From positions 1 through 27,699 of the IMG/VR virus record IMGVR_UViG_3300005078_000018: a DNA stretch of 27,699 nucleotides; one strand, given 5' to 3'. Source of the stretch: a virus. A program made the translations under genes and the position numbers. Each line of letters begins with the position of its first letter. The stretch's first letter is position 1. Below the pieces are notes generated by a model. It searched no databases, was not told the origin of the DNA, and was given only the letters and a program-made list of their open reading frames with translations. Shown piece by piece: positions 1 to 25,521 of this stretch.

Positions 1-32
1 CGGTTTCCCTACTCAGTCGAAGTTTTGCATCA

Positions 33-150
33 GAGCGGGCGAACCCCATAATTGCCATTATAGGCGTTGTTGTTGTTCAGTGCGCCGGACGAATTGACAA
101 TCCTGGCGTTATACGAATTGCCGGAGTTCGGAGAATCAGAAAACACCCCA
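33..150 (-). repeat. Candidate DGR template repeat (TR)
   Basis: This non-coding stretch directly follows avd on the same strand. Read in one frame it looks like the C-terminal end of a DGR variable protein (C-type-lectin fold) and ends NNNNAYNGNYGVRPL, with the stop at 30-32. The 32 codons before that stop hold ten Asn codons (AAC/AAT) and three Tyr codons. This is the signature of a template whose adenines are mutated when copied into the variable repeat. A stop codon immediately precedes the homologous part (near 154), and no upstream coding exons join it, so it is a template and not a translated protein. The GC-rich end at 33-47 resembles an initiation-of-mutagenic-homing region. The order avd-TR matches the classical target-avd-TR-RT layout. 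The exact TR borders cannot be set without the matching variable repeat. Confidence 0.82.
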
Positions 151-156
151 TGTTAT

Positions 157-495
157 TTATGTTCGCTTCATCCAGGCGGCTGTCAGGTATTTCACGTCCA
201 TTGTTTTTTTAACCCAGGTTTCCATTGTCCTGGTGCTGATGTATTGGCGCTTGTGGCAAATTTCAACCAGGGCCAGAAAAACATTTATCTCGCTTAAAAC
301 ATCGATCTGAACCTCCTTCCTGGCATTGACTGGCAACTCGTTTGCCTTGGCCAGTTTCCTGTAGATGTCCAGTGTCATGTTTTGCATACGATCCACGAAT
401 GTAAAGCGGGCTTTTTTCGGAAATCTTTTCGTATTATCCGTAATCGTCATCGTATAATCAATTAGTTCCATGGCTCTGTCGAAAACTTTCATCAT
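157..495 (-). CDS. avd: Avd-like DGR accessory variability determinant (four-helix bundle)
   Basis: This 112-residue, mostly helical, basic protein resembles the Avd / '23S rRNA intervening sequence' four-helix-bundle family. Conserved-looking stretches are TDNTKRFPKKARFTFVDR (about residues 20-37), the central NELPVNARKE, and the C-terminal DVKYLTAAW. In characterised DGRs Avd forms a barrel-like pentamer that binds the reverse transcriptase and the TR RNA and is required for mutagenic retrohoming. Its ATG overlaps the stop of the tail-fibre gene by four bases (ATGA), so it is probably translated by coupling at the end of the tail operon. A second ATG follows immediately at 492. The template repeat lies directly downstream. 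Free-standing IVS proteins share the fold, but the adjacent TR makes Avd the better call. Confidence 0.88.
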   Translation of the reverse strand: MMKVFDRAMELIDYTMTITDNTKRFPKKARFTFVDRMQNMTLDIYRKLAKANELPVNARKEVQIDVLSEINVFLALVEICHKRQYISTRTMETWVKKTMDVKYLTAAWMKRT

Positions 496-1334
496 GATTC
501 AGTTACCCCGGTGATTGTGTAAATTTCTCCGTTGTACCAGAACTTTTCTCCGACTGCTCTTGACCCCGGCGTGATGTTCATATTGATTGTTGAGCTGTTG
601 TTGACTGCAACGTCAACGGTAAACAGCGTTCGCTCCATGTCATAAATCGCCAGTTCCACCTCTGTGAAGCCTTCATAGGTCTGCTGTTTCATTTGTAATA
701 CTTTTGATCCTGCGAACGTCGCATCTCCACTGGCCACCGTCGCCGTTGTGTTTGCGGTGTCGATATAGCTGTTGTCTTCGAATAGATCAAAAAACCCAAT
801 CCCCGTTTTATTTAAAAATTCCGACACATTAAGTTCATCCAGCTTTAATTTTATATCTAAAATTTCCCGCCTGTCTGCCAGTTGTTGTTGTTGATATAAA
901 TCATTTGTATCGTTTTTTAAATAAAAACAATCATTTGACAGATTGTACCAAATAGTTACTGACTCACCTGCTGTTAGCGTTGGCACATCTGTTGTATTCG
1001 GCTTGTAAAGCGATTTACCATTAATCGTAGTCGCTGCTCCTGCATTATCTAAAGCTATTACGAACGTAACTTGAAAACCGTCAACCAGCTCGATATTAGA
1101 TAGCGTAATCGCTGTTCCAGTGCCACCGGCGGTTTGGATTGTTCGCAACGCGTCCCACGCTGCTTGTTTTTCTGCAGTGACGTGGAGATCGGTGTTGTCA
1201 ATGTGGTCAGCCGTTTTTTTCAACTCTGCATCAATCACCACAAAATTCTCATTCAAATCATTGATATCCGCATCATCACCAAATTCATCTGTTCCGTTTG
1301 GCAGTTTCAAATTATAATTTTCTGAATAATCCAT
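492..1334 (-). CDS. Tail-fibre / collar-type structural protein
   Basis: This 280-residue protein follows the DUF2313 baseplate protein, the usual position of the first tail-fibre gene in PBSX-type phages. The N-terminal motif around residues 24-40 (DINDLNENFVVIDAELKK) and HVTAEKQAAWD (about 51-61) are typical of fibre N-termini that attach to the baseplate and trimerise. The middle (about 68-145) has the TINGKSLYKP and TIWYNLSNDCFYL pattern seen in many clostridial phage fibre proteins. Start: a TTG at 1337 opens the frame, but the ATG at 1334 has GAGG seven bases upstream. That ATG overlaps the previous stop by one base (TGATG). The C-terminus carries no DGR variable repeat, although this gene sits where a DGR target usually lies. 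The receptor-binding part may therefore be a separate protein. Confidence 0.7.
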   Translation of the reverse strand: MDYSENYNLKLPNGTDEFGDDADINDLNENFVVIDAELKKTADHIDNTDLHVTAEKQAAWDALRTIQTAGGTGTAITLSNIELVDGFQVTFVIALDNAGAATTINGKSLYKPNTTDVPTLTAGESVTIWYNLSNDCFYLKNDTNDLYQQQQLADRREILDIKLKLDELNVSEFLNKTGIGFFDLFEDNSYIDTANTTATVASGDATFAGSKVLQMKQQTYEGFTEVELAIYDMERTLFTVDVAVNNSSTINMNITPGSRAVGEKFWYNGEIYTITGVTES

Positions 1335-1876
1335 CAAATCACCTCATTTCTTATGCCGTACCATGTTTTTGTTTTCAGATCGCTCCATTTTTTCTGTTTC
1401 ACCCGGTACCAGGTGTTATAAAGTACCTGAAGGTCAATAAACATATTGGCCGGCACTTGCTTCCTCAAAGTCATTTCAACTTCGTCATATTTTCCTTTAG
1501 CATTTAACTCGACCCGGACAGAAATAATATAATTTTCATTATCCAATTCAAGCCTATATCCTTCAGATCCGCAAAGCAAATCGAGCTGATTCCGCAATGT
1601 GGTCATCGTATAGGGTAACTGTTCATTTAGTCTGGCCAGTATCCTGAAACGCCGTGTCTCCAATGAATCGGTCGATTTAGGACTGATTTTCAACATCTGC
1701 TCCCAGCGTTTGGCTCCATTTTCGGTCAAGTCATTGGCAAACTGATCATCAAAAACCCCATAATAAGCGTTCCATGTTTTTTCAATATCCGGGTCCTCTG
1801 CCAGACATAAAGCCTGTACCTCACGAACAGCTTTGAGTATATCCGGGATATAGTTAATTAAATCAACTTGAGCCAT
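1334..1876 (-). CDS. Baseplate protein, DUF2313 / XkdU (YmfQ) family
   Basis: This protein of about 180 residues corresponds to XkdU of PBSX and Mu gp48-like proteins, which link the baseplate wedge protein to the tail fibres. Family-like features are the N-terminal LINYIPDILKAVREVQAL, the central region on errors per element (RFRILARLNEQLPYTMTTLRNQLDLLCG in two blocks), and the late Leu-rich block before LQVLYNTWYRV. The open frame starts at a TTG (1882). The in-frame ATG at 1876 lies after a GGGGG stretch and is the likelier start. It overlaps the end of the baseplate J gene by 14 bases. Its stop overlaps the tail-fibre start. Confidence 0.82.
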   Translation of the reverse strand: MAQVDLINYIPDILKAVREVQALCLAEDPDIEKTWNAYYGVFDDQFANDLTENGAKRWEQMLKISPKSTDSLETRRFRILARLNEQLPYTMTTLRNQLDLLCGSEGYRLELDNENYIISVRVELNAKGKYDEVEMTLRKQVPANMFIDLQVLYNTWYRVKQKKWSDLKTKTWYGIRNEVI

Positions 1877-5431: not shown

Positions 5432-8400
5432 CTACGCAATTTCATAATAGCCATACTCAGATCCAGATAACTCCTGACTGAGCTCATCAGTCAGTTTATT
5501 AATTACCGCCTGTGTGTCAAGTTCACTGTTTATTACATTATTCATGCTGATTGATATTTTTGTCTGCCCAGCAACTTTCCCAACAGGATGTAAGCCCGCA
5601 TTTTTACCTCTTACTGCATCCGCATTCGATAAAGACAGTCTCTTTCTGGCATCAGCCAAGCGGTTAGCCATGTTCGCCATCTGTCCTGTTTCGTTTGCTG
5701 TGTAAACCCGTTCGCCGCCGTTCATGCTGACATATTCGGGACCACGTTCGCCTACTAACGCTAAACCTCGTCTAGCATTTCTTGTTCCTACCGCATAACC
5801 AGGCAGGCTTCTAATATAACCATAACGATCCATCTGATATCTAATTGATGCAATAATATTGGAAACTGGATCCCAAATATTATCATAGCCTGGTAATTTA
5901 TAAGCCGCAAAAGTTGGATCAATGACCTGCATCAACCCTTTTGATGGAATACCGGCAGCTGCGTTTGAATCCCATAAATTAATCGCATTCGGATCGCCGC
6001 CACTTTCACCCAGCGCCAGAGAAATCAAATTCTGTAAGTTCTGATCACTGTACATGCCAGTAATATTAAGTGCCTGAGTAATCCAACCAGCCAAATCACC
6101 TGAATAAGATCCAGAAGCTAAACTTGAACCGTATTTTTTAGAATTATAGGCCGCCATCAAGGCATTAGCCAAAGGATTACCGATCATGATCGGCGCTCCT
6201 TGTAAATACGGAAGTGGGTCAATTGCTGCCCCATCTTTGTACATTGACAAGTGTAGATGTGATCCAGTTGATACGCCAGTATTACCAACAGCTCCAATAT
6301 TAGTACCAGCATTGATATTCTGCCCGGCAGCCACATTAATCGCCGACATATGGCCATAGAGCGTTTTATAGCCGTTGCCATGATCGACAATGACAGCATT
6401 GCCATAGCCGCCATACTCTCCAGCTAGGGTAACAAGTCCACCCATCATCGCTGCAATCGGTGTCCCGGTTGCTGCCGCCAAGTCAATCCCTTCATGATAA
6501 GTGCTGGCTCCGTCTGTTGGCGCATCCCTCAATCCAAAATAGCTTGTAATTGTTCCGGCGTTACCAATTAACGGATAAAGTAAGCTAGAAGCTTCAGATG
6601 GATCCACGCCAAGCTTGGTGACCAGATCAGGAATATTATCGCCCAGCATACTGACAACCTGACCAACATCAAGATTACCAGTTGAAAAACTGTTTTGCAT
6701 TCGGTCAATAATACCAAGGGTATACTGGTTAATCTGATCTGAGCTAAAACCCTTCATGACACCAGCGCCCATCATCTCCCCAATCCATTGCATCACCCGT
6801 GACGGGCTATGAATGCCAAGACCAGTAATAAAGATATTGAGCATCTCAGATACCAGACTTGAAATACCGGATAATACCTGCTCTTTGGTGGTGTTAATCC
6901 CTTCCAAGAGTTCGGTCATCATACCGGCACCAGCGCTTCTGAATTCAGGTAAAAGTGCATTGATCGTAGTTGTCATTGCACCAGTAAATCCAGTCGTATC
7001 CGTTAGCACCTGAGTCGACATGGCATTAACTGTCGCAACTGTGTTGGTATTAATAGCGGTCCAACCGTTTTGCATATTGGTTGCAAGTACCCCTGTCTGG
7101 GTCATCATTCCTGCCGTTGCACTGGTATAGGTTGCTGCGTTCTGCTGCATTCCCGCACTTCCAGCCGTATCACCAGATGCTGAAACTGAAGCTGTAGCAC
7201 CAATTGAAAGTGACGGCGTTTTAATATTCTTTGTCATGCCGCCCAATTCACCATTAACCGTCTGTAAAAGACCTGGCATGGCATTTTCGAAGCCAACCCC
7301 AATACCGGCCGGCAACATTTCCCCAACTTGGCTGGCAAGTACCTTTGAAGGGCTGTTGATATCAAACACACCTTTGATATTATCAACAATATTCTGCCCC
7401 ATCTCTGATATTTTCCCAGTAAACCAGTCCCATCCGCTGAGAATTCCTTCCCATATACCGGTTAAAATGTTATAGCCAACCTCTTTGATTTTGATGATTC
7501 CGTTATAAAGTGTGTCTACTATTCTGGCAATAATCTCAGGGATAACCTTGATGATAGCCGCAATAATAGCCGGCAGATTTTCAACCAAAGCAACCAGCAG
7601 CTTAAACCCAGTTTCAATAATGACCGGGATATTATTTACAAGTGCCTCGTGAATTGATGTAATGATCATCGGCAATGCCAGCACAATGGTCATAATGATT
7701 TCCGGCAGAGCACCAATTAATGATGTCAGCAATTTTAACCCGGCATCCATAATCATCGGCATTGACTGAAAGAGTGTGTTAATGATCGCTGTTAAAATCT
7801 GCGGTAAAACTGCTAAAATATGCTGTATAATCGCGGGTGCTCCTTCTACAAGCGCTGAGAATAGTTTAACCCCGATATCCAACACCATCGGTAAGGCAGT
7901 TGTAATGCCCTCGGTAATAGAAGTTATGATTTCCGGAATCCGATTAATTAACATCGGAATGGCACCGGTCAGACCCTGCAGCAAGGCTTCAAGGATCATC
8001 ACACCAGTTTCAATAATCTGCGGAATGTTGCCCGCTAAAGTGCTGATCATATCGGTAATGGCAACCGTCGCCTGGATAATCAGTGATGGTAACGCCTGCG
8101 TAACTCCCTGCACAAAGGACATGGCAATTTTTATGCCGGTGTCTAGCATCTGCGGTAGCATTGATATGCCATAATTTGCCATTTCAACAATACCAGAGCC
8201 AAGTGCCTGCGCTGCCCCTTCAAAGCCATCAACCTGAAAAGCAAAACTGATTTTCTCGCCAATGCCTGACGTAACATTGGTAAACTCTTTAAAACCGCCA
8301 GTTATCAAAGACAAGGCCCCAACAATTGGACCCTTTAAGCTGTCCGTGATTACCGTCAGCGATTTAACCACGCTGGTTTTCGTATTGGCAAAACTGCCAC

Positions 8401-9451: not shown

Positions 9452-9874
9452 TTAGTTTTTTGCTTCTTCCACCTCAGTATTGATGTCATTATCATAGCCA
9501 TTCATATCAAACACCTGTGTAATCAGCTCATCACGTTCACCTGGAAGCAACATCTTACCCAGTAGTGCATCCGGTGTTTTAACGCCGTAACTATCCTGAA
9601 GGTCAGCCGTTCGCAGATCCGGATAAACAACAGCAGCTGCAGCAATTTTCATCTGATACTTTTCAGAAAGAAAAACTCTGGTTGTTGCACCATTTTTAAG
9701 GGTTTTGTCAGCATAACATTTCCCTTTAATCTCAGATTCTTCATCAGAAGTCAGAGCTCGGATTTCCCACTCAATCGGATCCCCCTGCCCATCAATGAAG
9801 TTCTTTGAAACAGGGATTTTTCGGTTTTCAACAGTGATCTTATTAGGTTTTAAAAAAGCTTCTAAATTTTGCAT
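9452..9874 (-). CDS. Tail assembly chaperone, XkdN-like
   Basis: This 140-residue protein of the XkdN family sits directly upstream of the tape measure. It has the typical EWEIRALTSDEESEIKGKC segment (about 35-55), a central KIAAAAVVYPDLRTADLQDSYG block in the usual place (about 75-97), and a C-terminal LLPGERDELITQVFDM region. It is presumed to coat the tape measure during tube assembly rather than be part of the virion. It ends GCA AAA AAC TAA, where the A AAA AAC slippery heptamer would direct some ribosomes into the -1 frame at 9285-9449. An AAAGGA ribosome site lies upstream of the ATG. Confidence 0.9.
   Translation of the reverse strand: MQNLEAFLKPNKITVENRKIPVSKNFIDGQGDPIEWEIRALTSDEESEIKGKCYADKTLKNGATTRVFLSEKYQMKIAAAAVVYPDLRTADLQDSYGVKTPDALLGKMLLPGERDELITQVFDMNGYDNDINTEVEEAKN
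9455..9461 (-). promoter_or_regulatory. Programmed -1 ribosomal frameshift site A AAA AAC
   Basis: On the minus strand the zero-frame codons are GCA AAA AAC TAA, a canonical X XXY YYZ heptamer one codon before the stop. Slipping back by one base reads CTA ATC ATG CAG and continues in the downstream 54-codon frame, which has no ribosome site. Such shifts between the two tail chaperone frames are widespread in tailed phages. The shift rate cannot be read from the sequence, and no strong downstream pseudoknot was identified by eye. Confidence 0.8.
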
Positions 9875-9893
9875 ATTCTTTTCCTTTCAATTT

Positions 9894-9916
9894 AAAAGGG
9901 ACCCTTAAAAGGTCCC
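9894..9916 (-). terminator. Hairpin after the tail tube gene, possible attenuator
   Basis: On the minus strand, GGGACC and GGTCCC form a perfect six-base stem around a seven-base loop, followed by only four Ts. The tube gene stop codon (9905-9907) lies inside the loop. It looks like a weak intrinsic terminator that lets most polymerases through. It would lower expression of chaperone and tape measure relative to the abundant tube and sheath, or protect the mRNA 3' end. Confidence 0.5.
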
Positions 9917-10381
9917 TGCAAGTTCTGTGAATTCTTCCGGATAGTACCAATCTTCAAAAGTAAGATCAATATCCGTTTCCAGGCCGGCGCTGTCCACGTC
10001 CAACTGGAAGAGACAAGCTCCATCAATGTTACATCCTGTCATAATAATGGTTTGACGGCCTGCATCAGAACTGGGATCGTCATTTGTGGCTTGAATGGTA
10101 AAATAAATATCCTTACCAGTATCCTTATACTCCGTCAACAGTCGTCTGAAAATGGGTGTATTATCATAAATCGTTGCTGAAGCTGTCAGCTCTAACCCCG
10201 TTGATTTGTTCCCTTTTTTCATATTACCAAGAATCCCAAACTGTTCTTTGGTTTTCTTGGCATCAGCTTTCATTTTTTTAAGACTCATCAGATAATATCT
10301 GATACCCTCAATTGTTACATAACATTCTCCGGAAGCACCATTGATAATATCTTTTGCTTCCATCGTTAATTGATTTGCCAT
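9905..10381 (-). CDS. Tail tube protein, XkdM-like
   Basis: This 158-residue protein follows the sheath gene, as tube proteins do in PBSX and P2. It has the XkdM layout: AKDIINGASGECYVTIEG near the start, a beta-strand body with KMKADAKKTKEQFGILGNMKKGNK (two blocks, about 34-57), TGLELTASATIYDNTPIFRR, and a C-terminal LTFEDWYYPEEF. It polymerises into the inner tube through which DNA passes. It is preceded by an AGG-containing ribosome site and 19 bases from the sheath stop. Its stop lies within the hairpin at 9894-9916. Confidence 0.92.
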   Translation of the reverse strand: MANQLTMEAKDIINGASGECYVTIEGIRYYLMSLKKMKADAKKTKEQFGILGNMKKGNKSTGLELTASATIYDNTPIFRRLLTEYKDTGKDIYFTIQATNDDPSSDAGRQTIIMTGCNIDGACLFQLDVDSAGLETDIDLTFEDWYYPEEFTELAGTF

Positions 10382-10399
10382 TATTTTTCACCTGCCTTT

Positions 10400-11731
10400 C
10401 TACGCTACGACAACTGTCATATATAAATGCGACATGTCTTCCGTCACCTGGACTGAATCCGTAACCACCACGCTACCTTTGACCTCGCCTTTTACAGCCG
10501 TAATTTTCTTGGCATCAAAATCAGATATTGCTTCATCTTTTTCCATAGCTTGGTGATGCTCAACAATATCTGCTGCTAAACTAATCCGCCCGGCTGCATT
10601 GTTTTTGATATCGCCCATATACTTATCTTTGAAAATTCTGGCAATATCAATGGCGATTTTATCGATGACTCGAATTACCCGGTTATAACGGAAATCAGAT
10701 TGCTTTTCATCAGTAAAAGTTGTCAGGCTGTTAAAATCTTCCATGGTCCGAACATCGTTAGCCCCTACCTTATGCAGCATAAAATATCCAGATTTTAAAA
10801 AGGCGATAAATTCAGACTTGTCATAATCAGTATCAATTTCAAGCTCTCCGTCATAGGTTTTATTTGAGCATGAAGCATTGACCGCGCATCCAGCCTGAAG
10901 TCCGGCCATCCAATAGATAATGTCATAATCATTAAAACCAACAGATGTTACTTTGTTTTTTAGCTTAATCACACCTTCATAATCTGGGTCAACTGTCGGA
11001 TCCCAAACCAGTGTCTGGAATTTTGCCCCTTCTTCATCACGCAGCCTTTTGGTATAGGCTACATATAAGGCAATCATTTCAGCGGTGCTTGAAGGACAGG
11101 CCAGAATGTTGAAACTCTGGTATTCAATCGCCTTCAAGAAATCGGAATGTTCTGAAATGGTAACCGTATCTACATCGGTACCACCAGTTAAAACGATTGT
11201 CGCCGCTGTAGCCAGATCTAAGGTGCCAAAGACCACTACTTCATTGTCAACAGGTGCCCCAGTATCCGTTTCTACGGTCTGTTTATCAACCAGCACCCCG
11301 CCAACCATTGTCTCAACAGTTGTATAATCATCAAGAAGGGGCGTGATTTTAATTGAAATCGCATTGCCACGACTTCCGGAATACACCGCAGTTGCCAAAG
11401 TTGCCGCTGGTTCTGTTATTGTCGCAGTTGCTTTTTCGCCACTATTGATTTTATAAATCAACAAGGCTGTTGCATTGCAGAATAATTCGCGCAGTGCCCA
11501 CATTTCAGCAGCATCCTGCGTATAGCCAAATTTCTTAAGCATGATCTGATCATCCGAGAATTCATCTTTGGTTACTGTCATTAAAGACTCATTAGTACCC
11601 CATGAAAGCGCCATCGGTACTGCAACCACCCCACGCTCAACGGCTGTAGTTGCTCTTGCGGCACTGATGAAGTTCATGTAACTTCCCGGGAGGACCATGT
11701 TCATCGTTGTAAAATTCCCACCACCAAACAT
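10400..11731 (-). CDS. Tail sheath protein
   Basis: This 443-residue protein is the contractile sheath subunit, which shows that this is a myovirus tail. Recognisable parts are the LPGSYMNFISAARA N-terminus (Tyr- and Gly-rich entry arm), VVAVPMALSWGTNE (about 36-49), YSGSRGNAISIKI (about 117-129, the sheath insertion domain entry), and the C-terminal region with NSLTTFTDEKQSDFRYNRVIRVIDKIA in two blocks, ending in the strand that links subunits (HLYMTVVVA). Length fits the PBSX XkdK type. The ATG overlaps the previous stop by one base (TAATG). Confidence 0.95.
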   Translation of the reverse strand: MFGGGNFTTMNMVLPGSYMNFISAARATTAVERGVVAVPMALSWGTNESLMTVTKDEFSDDQIMLKKFGYTQDAAEMWALRELFCNATALLIYKINSGEKATATITEPAATLATAVYSGSRGNAISIKITPLLDDYTTVETMVGGVLVDKQTVETDTGAPVDNEVVVFGTLDLATAATIVLTGGTDVDTVTISEHSDFLKAIEYQSFNILACPSSTAEMIALYVAYTKRLRDEEGAKFQTLVWDPTVDPDYEGVIKLKNKVTSVGFNDYDIIYWMAGLQAGCAVNASCSNKTYDGELEIDTDYDKSEFIAFLKSGYFMLHKVGANDVRTMEDFNSLTTFTDEKQSDFRYNRVIRVIDKIAIDIARIFKDKYMGDIKNNAAGRISLAADIVEHHQAMEKDEAISDFDAKKITAVKGEVKGSVVVTDSVQVTEDMSHLYMTVVVA

Positions 11732-21797: not shown

Positions 21798-21833
21798 GAA
21801 TGTTTCCTACGCCATTAGGAGCATTCTTTTTTT
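21798..21833 (+). terminator. Terminator-like hairpin oriented on the plus strand
   Basis: GAATG-TTTCCTA and TAGGA-G-CATTC pair with a small bulge around a CGCCAT loop and are followed by seven Ts on the plus strand. It overlaps the last codons of the PcfJ gene. No plus-strand gene lies upstream, so it may block antisense transcription into the PcfJ gene. It could also be chance. Confidence 0.4.
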
Positions 21834-23590
21834 ATTCGATCATTAAAAATTGCTGATTCCCAGTTTTTCATAAATGCTTTTACTTCATCAGTCGGACCAA
21901 TATTTCGCTTACCTTTGACCTGAAACACTTTACCATTTATAAATTCAACAGTGTAGAAAGGAACTTCGGGCTGATCCGCTTCTCGGATAAATAAAATTGT
22001 AGTTTCTCCGGAAGCATGATCTTTGATATATCTGTCGCTACCAACGCAATGTCCAAGTTTTTGTCCTTCCTGAATAATTTCCTTCGCCCCTTCTGGTGCT
22101 TTGATCAGCAGACCACCGCTTTTAAAACAATACAGATTATCCAACTTCTTTTTACGATTTCTGATCTGCCGGTTTGTCTTTCTTAATTTTTTCATCCGTT
22201 CTTCATCTTTTCGCTGATTGATAATATCCACCAGCTGATCATGGCGCGCGATCAGATTTTTAGGCCACAGGTTATGTTTTTCGGTGAGATCCCATTTTTC
22301 TTGTTCTGCCATTCCCAAATAGTCAAAATACGTTTCAACCATTGCATTCACAGTTTTTTTGCCGGCTTGTTTTCTCAGGTATTTTATGTTTCGTATCGGA
22401 TCACCTTCATGTTCCATCAACTTATCGAAATTGTGATCTTCAAACCGGCATTCTTTAAGCAACAATAGATCCAATTCAGTCGCGACCTTTACTTTCTTCA
22501 GTTTGATAAATTGATCCAATGTTCGCTGGTTGGAATCCACCTTTTTTAGCAGTTGAAAATCATTTGATGTAATACCAAAATACTGCTGCAGATTTTTAGC
22601 CCGAGAATTATATTTCCAAAAACCGCCAAATTTCAGAAGATCAGCAAGAATATTATAAAGTCCTGCATTTGCAATATATTCGATGACCGGGAATATTAAA
22701 TAGTCAGATAAATAATCAATCGGATTAAACATGTTCCCATTTTCGGCCAGTTTCTCCATTTTGCAGTATTGATATGGAGTGTATGCCAATACTTCTTTGA
22801 GGTTATCGCTGAATACCTTGTAATTTTTGATATTATTGCCGATTCCGCTTCTTTTTTTCCATACTTCATCACCATGGTACCAGTCGTTCACAAGCTCATA
22901 TTTGACGGTTTTTCCATTCTTTTTATTAATCATGAATCGCACCGATTCAATTTCATTAAGAATGCTTTCTTCCCGTTCCCCAGTAATGTCGTTTTTACTG
23001 TAGTATTTCAAAAATTTAAAATACCTGATTGCAATTTGATTATCAATAGTCTGTAAACATGCGACCTGATGCTCTTCTTTTTTGGCTCGTGGATTGCTTT
23101 TTTTAACAAACAGTGATTCAACCCAATCATCAAATCCTTCCGGAACTCCAGCAGCGTTGAACTTATCCATCATCGCACAAGTTCTGATATATTTTCGATT
23201 GTTCGAATTTTCTCTTTTTTGAGAAGATACTGTTTCCTGAAAATCCGCAATCAGATTAAATAACGACAGTTGACTGTGTCTGCTTGTTGGCCTTAAATAG
23301 TTATCGAATATCTTTTGCTGCCCCATATCTAAAATAACCCAATCTTTTGGGTCGCTCCACCCAGTGTGCCCAAGATACTTTTCAGCGACCGCGCGGATAT
23401 TTGCGCCAGTCCAGAGGATATTGCCTTGACTATCTTGCTGCTCAACAATCATGGTGGAAAAATCCATTTTATTCCGGTCCAAATATATTCTTGCCACTGC
23501 ATTTTTCACCTTTGGCACAAACATTGAAAGACAAAGCACATCATCAGCTTTAATTATTTCTGCAATAATCAGTACATCATGGTCAACCAT
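21815..23590 (-). CDS. pcfJ: PcfJ-like protein
   Basis: This 591-residue protein matches the PcfJ family, first named on conjugative plasmid pCF10 and often paired with PcfK. Its conserved C-terminal domain contains KKLDNLYCFKSGGLLIKAPEG, EGQKLGHCVGSDRYIKDHASG (GHCVG at 513-517), TTILFIREADQPEVPFYTVE and the GKVFQVKGKRN block. The biochemical role is unknown. The ATG at 23590 lacks a ribosome site. The same frame runs upstream, encoding TYEKLEYKYPQN, back to the PcfK stop. The ATG with a good GAGG (23637-23639) is one base out of frame because of an A8 run. The true N-terminus is probably MKKRTYEKLEYKYPQNMVDH, requiring a seven-A read. Confidence 0.87.
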   Translation of the reverse strand: MVDHDVLIIAEIIKADDVLCLSMFVPKVKNAVARIYLDRNKMDFSTMIVEQQDSQGNILWTGANIRAVAEKYLGHTGWSDPKDWVILDMGQQKIFDNYLRPTSRHSQLSLFNLIADFQETVSSQKRENSNNRKYIRTCAMMDKFNAAGVPEGFDDWVESLFVKKSNPRAKKEEHQVACLQTIDNQIAIRYFKFLKYYSKNDITGEREESILNEIESVRFMINKKNGKTVKYELVNDWYHGDEVWKKRSGIGNNIKNYKVFSDNLKEVLAYTPYQYCKMEKLAENGNMFNPIDYLSDYLIFPVIEYIANAGLYNILADLLKFGGFWKYNSRAKNLQQYFGITSNDFQLLKKVDSNQRTLDQFIKLKKVKVATELDLLLLKECRFEDHNFDKLMEHEGDPIRNIKYLRKQAGKKTVNAMVETYFDYLGMAEQEKWDLTEKHNLWPKNLIARHDQLVDIINQRKDEERMKKLRKTNRQIRNRKKKLDNLYCFKSGGLLIKAPEGAKEIIQEGQKLGHCVGSDRYIKDHASGETTILFIREADQPEVPFYTVEFINGKVFQVKGKRNIGPTDEVKAFMKNWESAIFNDRIKKECS

Positions 23591-24717: not shown

Positions 24718-25521
24718 TCAATAAATGCATAACTGTTTTTGCGGCTCAAAATTCATATATAAGACCTCAGTCTTTTTACTCATTACCTGGGTGTACGAAT
24801 CTTTATACTCTTTATGCCAATCTTTCAGCATATCGCTGTATAAATCAGTTTCATAACCACTTAAGATAACCGGGCCTTTATGAGCTTTTAAAATCTCAAG
24901 CAACTTTACATGCTGCCGATCATTCATTTCACATCTGTACTGCTTTCCATGCCTTGTTTCCAACATATAGGGAGGATCAACATAGATTAAAACTGAATCA
25001 TAATTGAACCTTGTAATCAATTCCTCTGCCGGTCTATTTTCAATTTGCACGCCCTTTAAGCGTTCAGCGGTAGCTATTATTTTTTCCGGCAACGAATTCC
25101 ATCCTTTGAGAGCATATGCTCTTTCTCTTCCCTGAACATCATTTTTCCAACCAACCTTTTCACCTGTAGTTCTGAAACCATGACCCATATTGCATCTGAT
25201 GAAGAAATTACGGGCACGCTGGTAATTGTCGTCAGCTGGTACCGTCAAATATGATTCTTCATAAATCTGCCTTGCATAAGGGGTAAAATAGATCTCGTGT
25301 GCCAACTTTTCCGGGTCTTTCCTGATACATTCAAAGAGATTCACAACTTCACCATCAAGATCATTAATCGTTTCGATGTTTGATCTATCTTTGCTGAATA
25401 GTATTGCACCACTCCCGAAAAACGGTTCCAAATAGCTGTGATGTTTCGGAAAGAAATCTATTATCCAGTCGGCCAGCCGCCATTTACTCCCCGGGTATTT
25501 CAATACAGCCTTTGTTTTCAT
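24718..25521 (-). CDS. DNA adenine N6-methyltransferase (D12 class, Dam-like)
   Basis: This 267-residue protein carries the class motifs: KYPGSKWRL (about 8-16, the SAM-binding start), LEPFFGSGAILF (about 31-42), ETINDLDGEVVNLF (about 50-63), and the catalytic DPPY (182-185) followed by a recognition segment. It transfers a methyl group from SAM to the N6 of adenine in a specific DNA site. No restriction enzyme gene is nearby, so it is an orphan methylase, perhaps protecting phage DNA from host enzymes or marking replicated DNA. The ATG overlaps the RusA gene by 38 bases; GAGG lies 14 bases away, so coupling is likely. Confidence 0.93.
   Translation of the reverse strand: MKTKAVLKYPGSKWRLADWIIDFFPKHHSYLEPFFGSGAILFSKDRSNIETINDLDGEVVNLFECIRKDPEKLAHEIYFTPYARQIYEESYLTVPADDNYQRARNFFIRCNMGHGFRTTGEKVGWKNDVQGRERAYALKGWNSLPEKIIATAERLKGVQIENRPAEELITRFNYDSVLIYVDPPYMLETRHGKQYRCEMNDRQHVKLLEILKAHKGPVILSGYETDLYSDMLKDWHKEYKDSYTQVMSKKTEVLYMNFEPQKQLCIY

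Follow-up and report, generated by a model that had tools for sequence, protein, structure and literature searches.

A truncated avd-TR cassette at the contig end of a contractile-tailed phage resembles tentaclin-type diversity-generating retroelements

Described phage systems with a downstream target

The name tentaclins was given by Baykov et al. 2023 (PMC10743442) to DUF6273 targets of the diversity-generating retroelements (DGRs) of phages nd4 and nd12, targets in which Ig-like domains follow a variable repeat (VR) located toward the N terminus. In these cassettes the template repeat (TR) lies upstream of the reverse transcriptase (RT), and a target with a DUF6273/C-type-lectin domain and an internal VR lies downstream. 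The Faecalibacterium phages FP_Brigit, FP_Toutatis, and Lelie (PMC5883640, PMC11792537) likewise have the RT ahead of the target gene, and 216 to 411 residues of the target stand behind the VR. Bordetella phage BPP-1 (mtd-avd-TR-brt) has the same order of avd, TR, and RT as the cassette described here and the same adenine-specific differences between TR and VR, but its target lies upstream of avd, its VR is C-terminal, and an 8-bp GC hairpin stands behind the VR.

The DNA analyzed here (the window) is an entire virus record of 27,699 bases (IMGVR_UViG_3300005078_000018). On its minus strand an HNH gene is followed by terminase, portal, head, sheath, tape-measure, and baseplate genes, then by a fibre-like gene, avd, and a TR, and the contig stops at the left end, 30 bases past the TR. 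Among the tail proteins are a sheath and a baseplate protein of the Mu-Gp48 type. Two genes upstream of the terminase genes (21815 to 23590 and 24718 to 25521) encode a PcfJ-like protein and an adenine methyltransferase of the D12 class. We searched all 27,699 bases for an RT and the whole window for a VR or second TR copy and found none, and an Rfam search of the window returned no match. The features at the left end, compared where relevant with the siphovirus contig L001 (IMG/VR 3300034524_000010) and other relatives, are as follows:

157..495, minus strand: avd, DGR accessory protein, 112 aa (PHROG 3206, 1.3e-21; 95% identity to the Avd of both L001 and L002)
31..132, minus strand: TR core aligning to the L001 VR (BLASTN to the L001 TR and VR; adenine-biased differences)
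1..30, minus strand: start of the TR-RT spacer with a conserved GAGTAG element, the contig ending inside the spacer (alignment of 31 relatives)
492..1337, minus strand: fibre-like gene upstream of avd, without a VR (BLASTP to same-position genes in L001, L087, L088, L009, and L004)
1..1139, minus strand: DNA segment shared with L001, 85.9% identity (BLASTN)
1..878, minus strand: part of that segment also shared with contig L005, 90.4% identity (BLASTN)

The accessory gene, template, and missing half

The accessory protein Avd of DGRs is present in the window where an Avd-like gene had been predicted: the product of 157 to 495 matches the PHROG family annotated as "Avd protein of DGR," and it also matches the Pfam bAvd model (2.4e-8, 34.8 bits) and the NCBIfam DivGenRetAVD model (7.6e-12, 45.5 bits), in each case under the cutoff (40 and 80 bits, respectively). 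A comparison of the Avd profile with the PDB recovered nothing meaningful. Values of dN/dS were 0.029/0.82 against L001 and 0.029/0.49 against L002, a ratio of 0.03 to 0.06, and avd is under purifying selection.

On the minus strand the TR reads SPNSGNSYNARIVNSSGALNNNNAYNGNYGVRPL up to a stop and does not form an open gene. The original prediction had described a repeat at 33 to 150 in these terms, and it is homologous to a VR, but homology sets its limits at 31 to 132, and the label adenine-rich was loose (27 of 118 bases), the adenines being clustered in AAC, AAT, and TAT codons as in other TRs. The near-copy differing at adenines that had been expected is absent from the window record and is found instead in the L001 VR, to which the 102 bases of the TR align with 18 differences, 13 of them at A. 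The TR itself is 95 to 97% identical in L001 and L002 (95% in L001), and in the far more distant loci L086 and L004 the TRs keep 24 of the 26 adenines of the window TR but only 49 to 50 of its 76 other bases; on both grounds the repeat is not a product of chance. Although the TR is untranslated, we scored its differences in the reading frame of the target and found them synonymous in 4 of 4 cases for L001 and 2 of 2 for L002, and, for the two distant loci, in 21 of 29 (L086) and 21 of 28 (L004); random substitutions would give about 25%. The best reading of this pattern is that selection reaches the TR through its translated copies.

The part that the window lacks is intact in L001, where the cassette runs avd-TR-RT-DUF6273 target and is followed by some small open reading frames and then a holin. 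The L001 RT (PHROG 1423, 4e-121) begins about 130 bases past the point where the window ends, in keeping with the RT predicted just left of base 1, and a profile of this RT and three relatives matches solved RT chains, the best being 8ub7 (4e-57). The L001 target has 355 aa and matches DUF6273 at 4e-32; its VR comprises residues 224 to 257 and is followed by 98 residues. The VR differs from the TR of the same contig at 13 of 99 bases, and all 13 are template adenines.

We examined 34 loci whose RTs are close relatives of the L001 RT. In 31 of them we recovered a TR and a VR whose mismatches fall almost entirely on adenines, and the 3 loci without a pair are all on early-ending contigs. Of the 31 paired loci, 30 encode the target after the RT and carry the VR inside it; in L107, the exception, the target is upstream and the VR is near the terminus. 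Most complete targets of near relatives have 96 to 416 residues behind the internal VR. Together, the L001 cassette, its adenine-only VR differences, and the recurrence of the same order in 30 of 34 near relatives support well a DGR with an RT left of base 1. The L086 contig, which carries the same fibre end, avd, TR, and RT, ends at 6935, exactly where the VR of the target should start, the outcome to be expected of an assembly interrupted by VR variants in the population.

The original prediction had also placed the cassette in a target-avd-TR-RT layout and read the repeat as the C terminus of a target. Neither view held: the gene upstream of avd has no VR, so the cassette does not have this order, the relatives are arranged as avd-TR-RT-target, and the VR of L001 is internal. 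The layout proposed earlier fits BPP-1 and not the cassette of the window, which, judged from its relatives, is probably of the published tentaclin type. The likeness has limits, since in nd4 and nd12 there is also a second target, whose VR is 3'-terminal, and a three-Ig tail (579 aa), whereas the L001 target has one short domain behind its VR. The L001 RT is 50% identical to that of nd12 (locus L006 of our set of relatives) and 41% identical to that of nd4, and the RTs of FP_Brigit, FP_Toutatis, and Lelie are only about 40% identical to it.

We put the probability at roughly 0.9 that what stands at the left end of the window is the opening portion of a complete and maintained phage DGR, ordered avd-TR-RT-target and cut inside the TR-RT spacer, as the earlier proposal of a truncated DGR at this contig end had held from the Avd-like gene and repeat. 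A decayed remnant, in which avd and the TR persist in a phage that has lost the RT or the target, would be compatible with the fact that both genes of this phage lie beyond the contig, unseen, but the dN/dS of 0.03 to 0.06 in Avd and the target-frame-synonymous TR differences point to continued use, and the window is collinear with the intact L001 cassette up to its last base; we therefore regard such decay as improbable. Avd-like proteins are sometimes annotated otherwise, as with the 23S rRNA-intervening sequence protein of phage phiARM81mr, so one could imagine an Avd-like four-helix protein that merely sits beside a chance repeat. That account is already contradicted by L001, and relatives up to 95% identical repeat the succession of TR, spacer, RT, and adenine-biased VR, which leaves it with almost no credibility.

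Bases 1 to 99 of the window are identical to L005 9461 to 9559, and the two contigs stop within one base of each other. An exact search of viral contigs for the pattern at the TR end matched only L005, which ends one base past the end of the window. An assembly could break at this point if two phages share the downstream RT.

Mobility of the cassette and role of the diversified protein

The DNA that the window shares with L001 and L005 consists of the 3' part of the fibre-like gene, avd, and the TR (86 to 90% identity), and BLASTN at an E value of 1e-5 found no other DNA common to the window and these contigs apart from the TR-to-VR match. The L001 tail genes are Dit and Sipho_Gp37, and the tail of L005 includes a prophage-endopeptidase-type protein. 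Such sharing with two phages of other tail types indicates that the cassette moves, and homologs of the fibre C terminus also lie upstream of avd in L004, L009, and L087. With the window the tentaclin-type DGRs gain a contractile-tail phage and a case in which the cassette and the fibre C terminus move together between tail types. Searches of viral contigs with the baseplate and fibre proteins recovered the two known contigs and one distant myophage contig without a cassette in the stretch examined, and the predicted structure of the fibre was unusable (pLDDT 39). The tail endopeptidase-type protein of L005 (2158 to 6585, 1475 aa) contains 12 ChW (clostridial hydrophobic W) repeats, which hint at a clostridial-type host, and has an endosialidase chaperone domain at its C terminus.

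For the phage of the window we infer an RT, a target, DGR activity, and a binding role. By the established DGR mechanism, a complex of RT and Avd would copy the TR RNA, the adenines of the TR would be misread during copying, and the mutated cDNA would take the place of the homologous VR. This VR would lie within a tentaclin-type DUF6273 (C-type-lectin-like) protein encoded just past the RT and before the holin, and the diversified protein would most likely be a binding protein on the virion surface. The repeated linkage across tail types suggests that the fibre C-terminal domain interacts with the diversified protein and that the two may work together.

The predicted structure of the L001 target (pLDDT 79.5) includes a beta-rich domain at residues 300 to 354 (pLDDT 50 to 66). 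The sole strong PDB match of this model (gene at 9665 to 10732) was the Thomasclavelia ramosa IgA peptidase 9qa6 (E value of 3.8e-11, query TM score of 0.54, 22% identity), which suggests that the two proteins may share a lectin-like plus Ig-like module; since it is the only one, the C-type-lectin fold of the target rests on PMC10743442 and not on the structure search.

Our preferred role for the diversified protein is binding of a host receptor, as the original prediction had supposed. The same DGR could instead diversify a Hoc-like capsid decoration or an adhesin for mucus or matrix that is not a tail-borne host binder: the L001 target matches PHROG 10993, "Hoc-like head decoration" (2e-73), the targets of FP_Mushu and FP_Brigit are annotated that way (PMC5883640), and Baykov et al. 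leave open whether host, epithelium, or immune cells are bound (PMC10743442). The travel of the cassette with a fibre C terminus between different tail types and the position of the target gene between fibre and lysis genes speak against it, although neither is decisive, and we hold this alternative to be possible but the less likely one.

A heptad array behind the VR

Directly behind the VR of L001 (10435 to 10475) lies a series of pyrimidine-rich units spaced 7 to 8 nt apart, CGCTTTGCAATCTGAAATCTGATATCTTGGTATCTGA, and similar units occur in the first ~40 bases behind the VR of most DGR relatives examined but not behind the TR. In near relatives the ~35 bases behind the VR are conserved beyond what the protein needs. 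Across 18 dereplicated targets, codon agreement at conserved residues averaged 45% but reached 100% at Asn259, Ile264, and Leu265 and 89% at Ser262, all four of which lie behind the VR, and a 10-codon window there (including the last VR codons) stood 0.39 to 0.44 over the amino acid background, with no window above 0.07 elsewhere.

A GC-rich hairpin with a 4-nt loop has been reported behind the VR of phage DGRs (PMC3240598), and according to PMC12875486 the BPP-1 hairpin matters for efficiency without being an absolute requirement. In many DGRs with a C-terminal VR the array comes first and is followed by such a hairpin; BPP-1 has the hairpin and at most two array units, and the archaeal virus ANMV-1 has neither. 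A conserved hairpin behind the internal VRs of the relatives was considered and rejected, as no stem rose above the shuffled range.

We lean toward the view that DGR target sites carry a conserved and apparently undescribed cis element, an array of ~35 nt (approximately NNNYYTG at 7- to 8-nt spacing) that begins at the VR's 3' end, has no counterpart behind the TR, stands ahead of the known hairpin in many DGRs whose VR is C-terminal, lies in frame as frozen codons without a hairpin in internal-VR tentaclin-type targets, and may mark the recipient site. The array is the more novel part of our findings, the DGR itself being of an already published kind; passages and term searches of open-licence papers contained no mention of it. 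Roux et al. 2021 (PMC8144416) proposed that VRs occupy C termini because this places the cis-acting elements of retrohoming between genes, where no coding constraint bears on them; the internal VRs that are followed by a frozen-codon array suggest that a gene can also contain elements of this kind.

The periodicity was measured by self-identity against dinucleotide shuffles, using 59 VRs from loci gathered through related RTs and dereplicated by post-VR sequence only, in which the 10 cases classed as internal include some truncated or atypical ones (L099, L104, and L034). In the 50 bases behind the VR, z was 13.4 at lag 7 and 10.1 at lag 8, compared with 2.2 and −0.7 in the 50 bases behind the TR of the same 59. 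Of the 59 sequences behind the VR, 28 contained a chain of at least 4 YYT units, compared with none of the 59 behind the TR (0.4% at random); the unit classes YTG and YYT were picked after viewing the data, and the lag tests are independent of them. In eleven named phages fetched afterwards, the post-VR values were 3.9 at lag 7 and 3.6 at lag 8, compared with post-TR values of 0.9 and −1.0.
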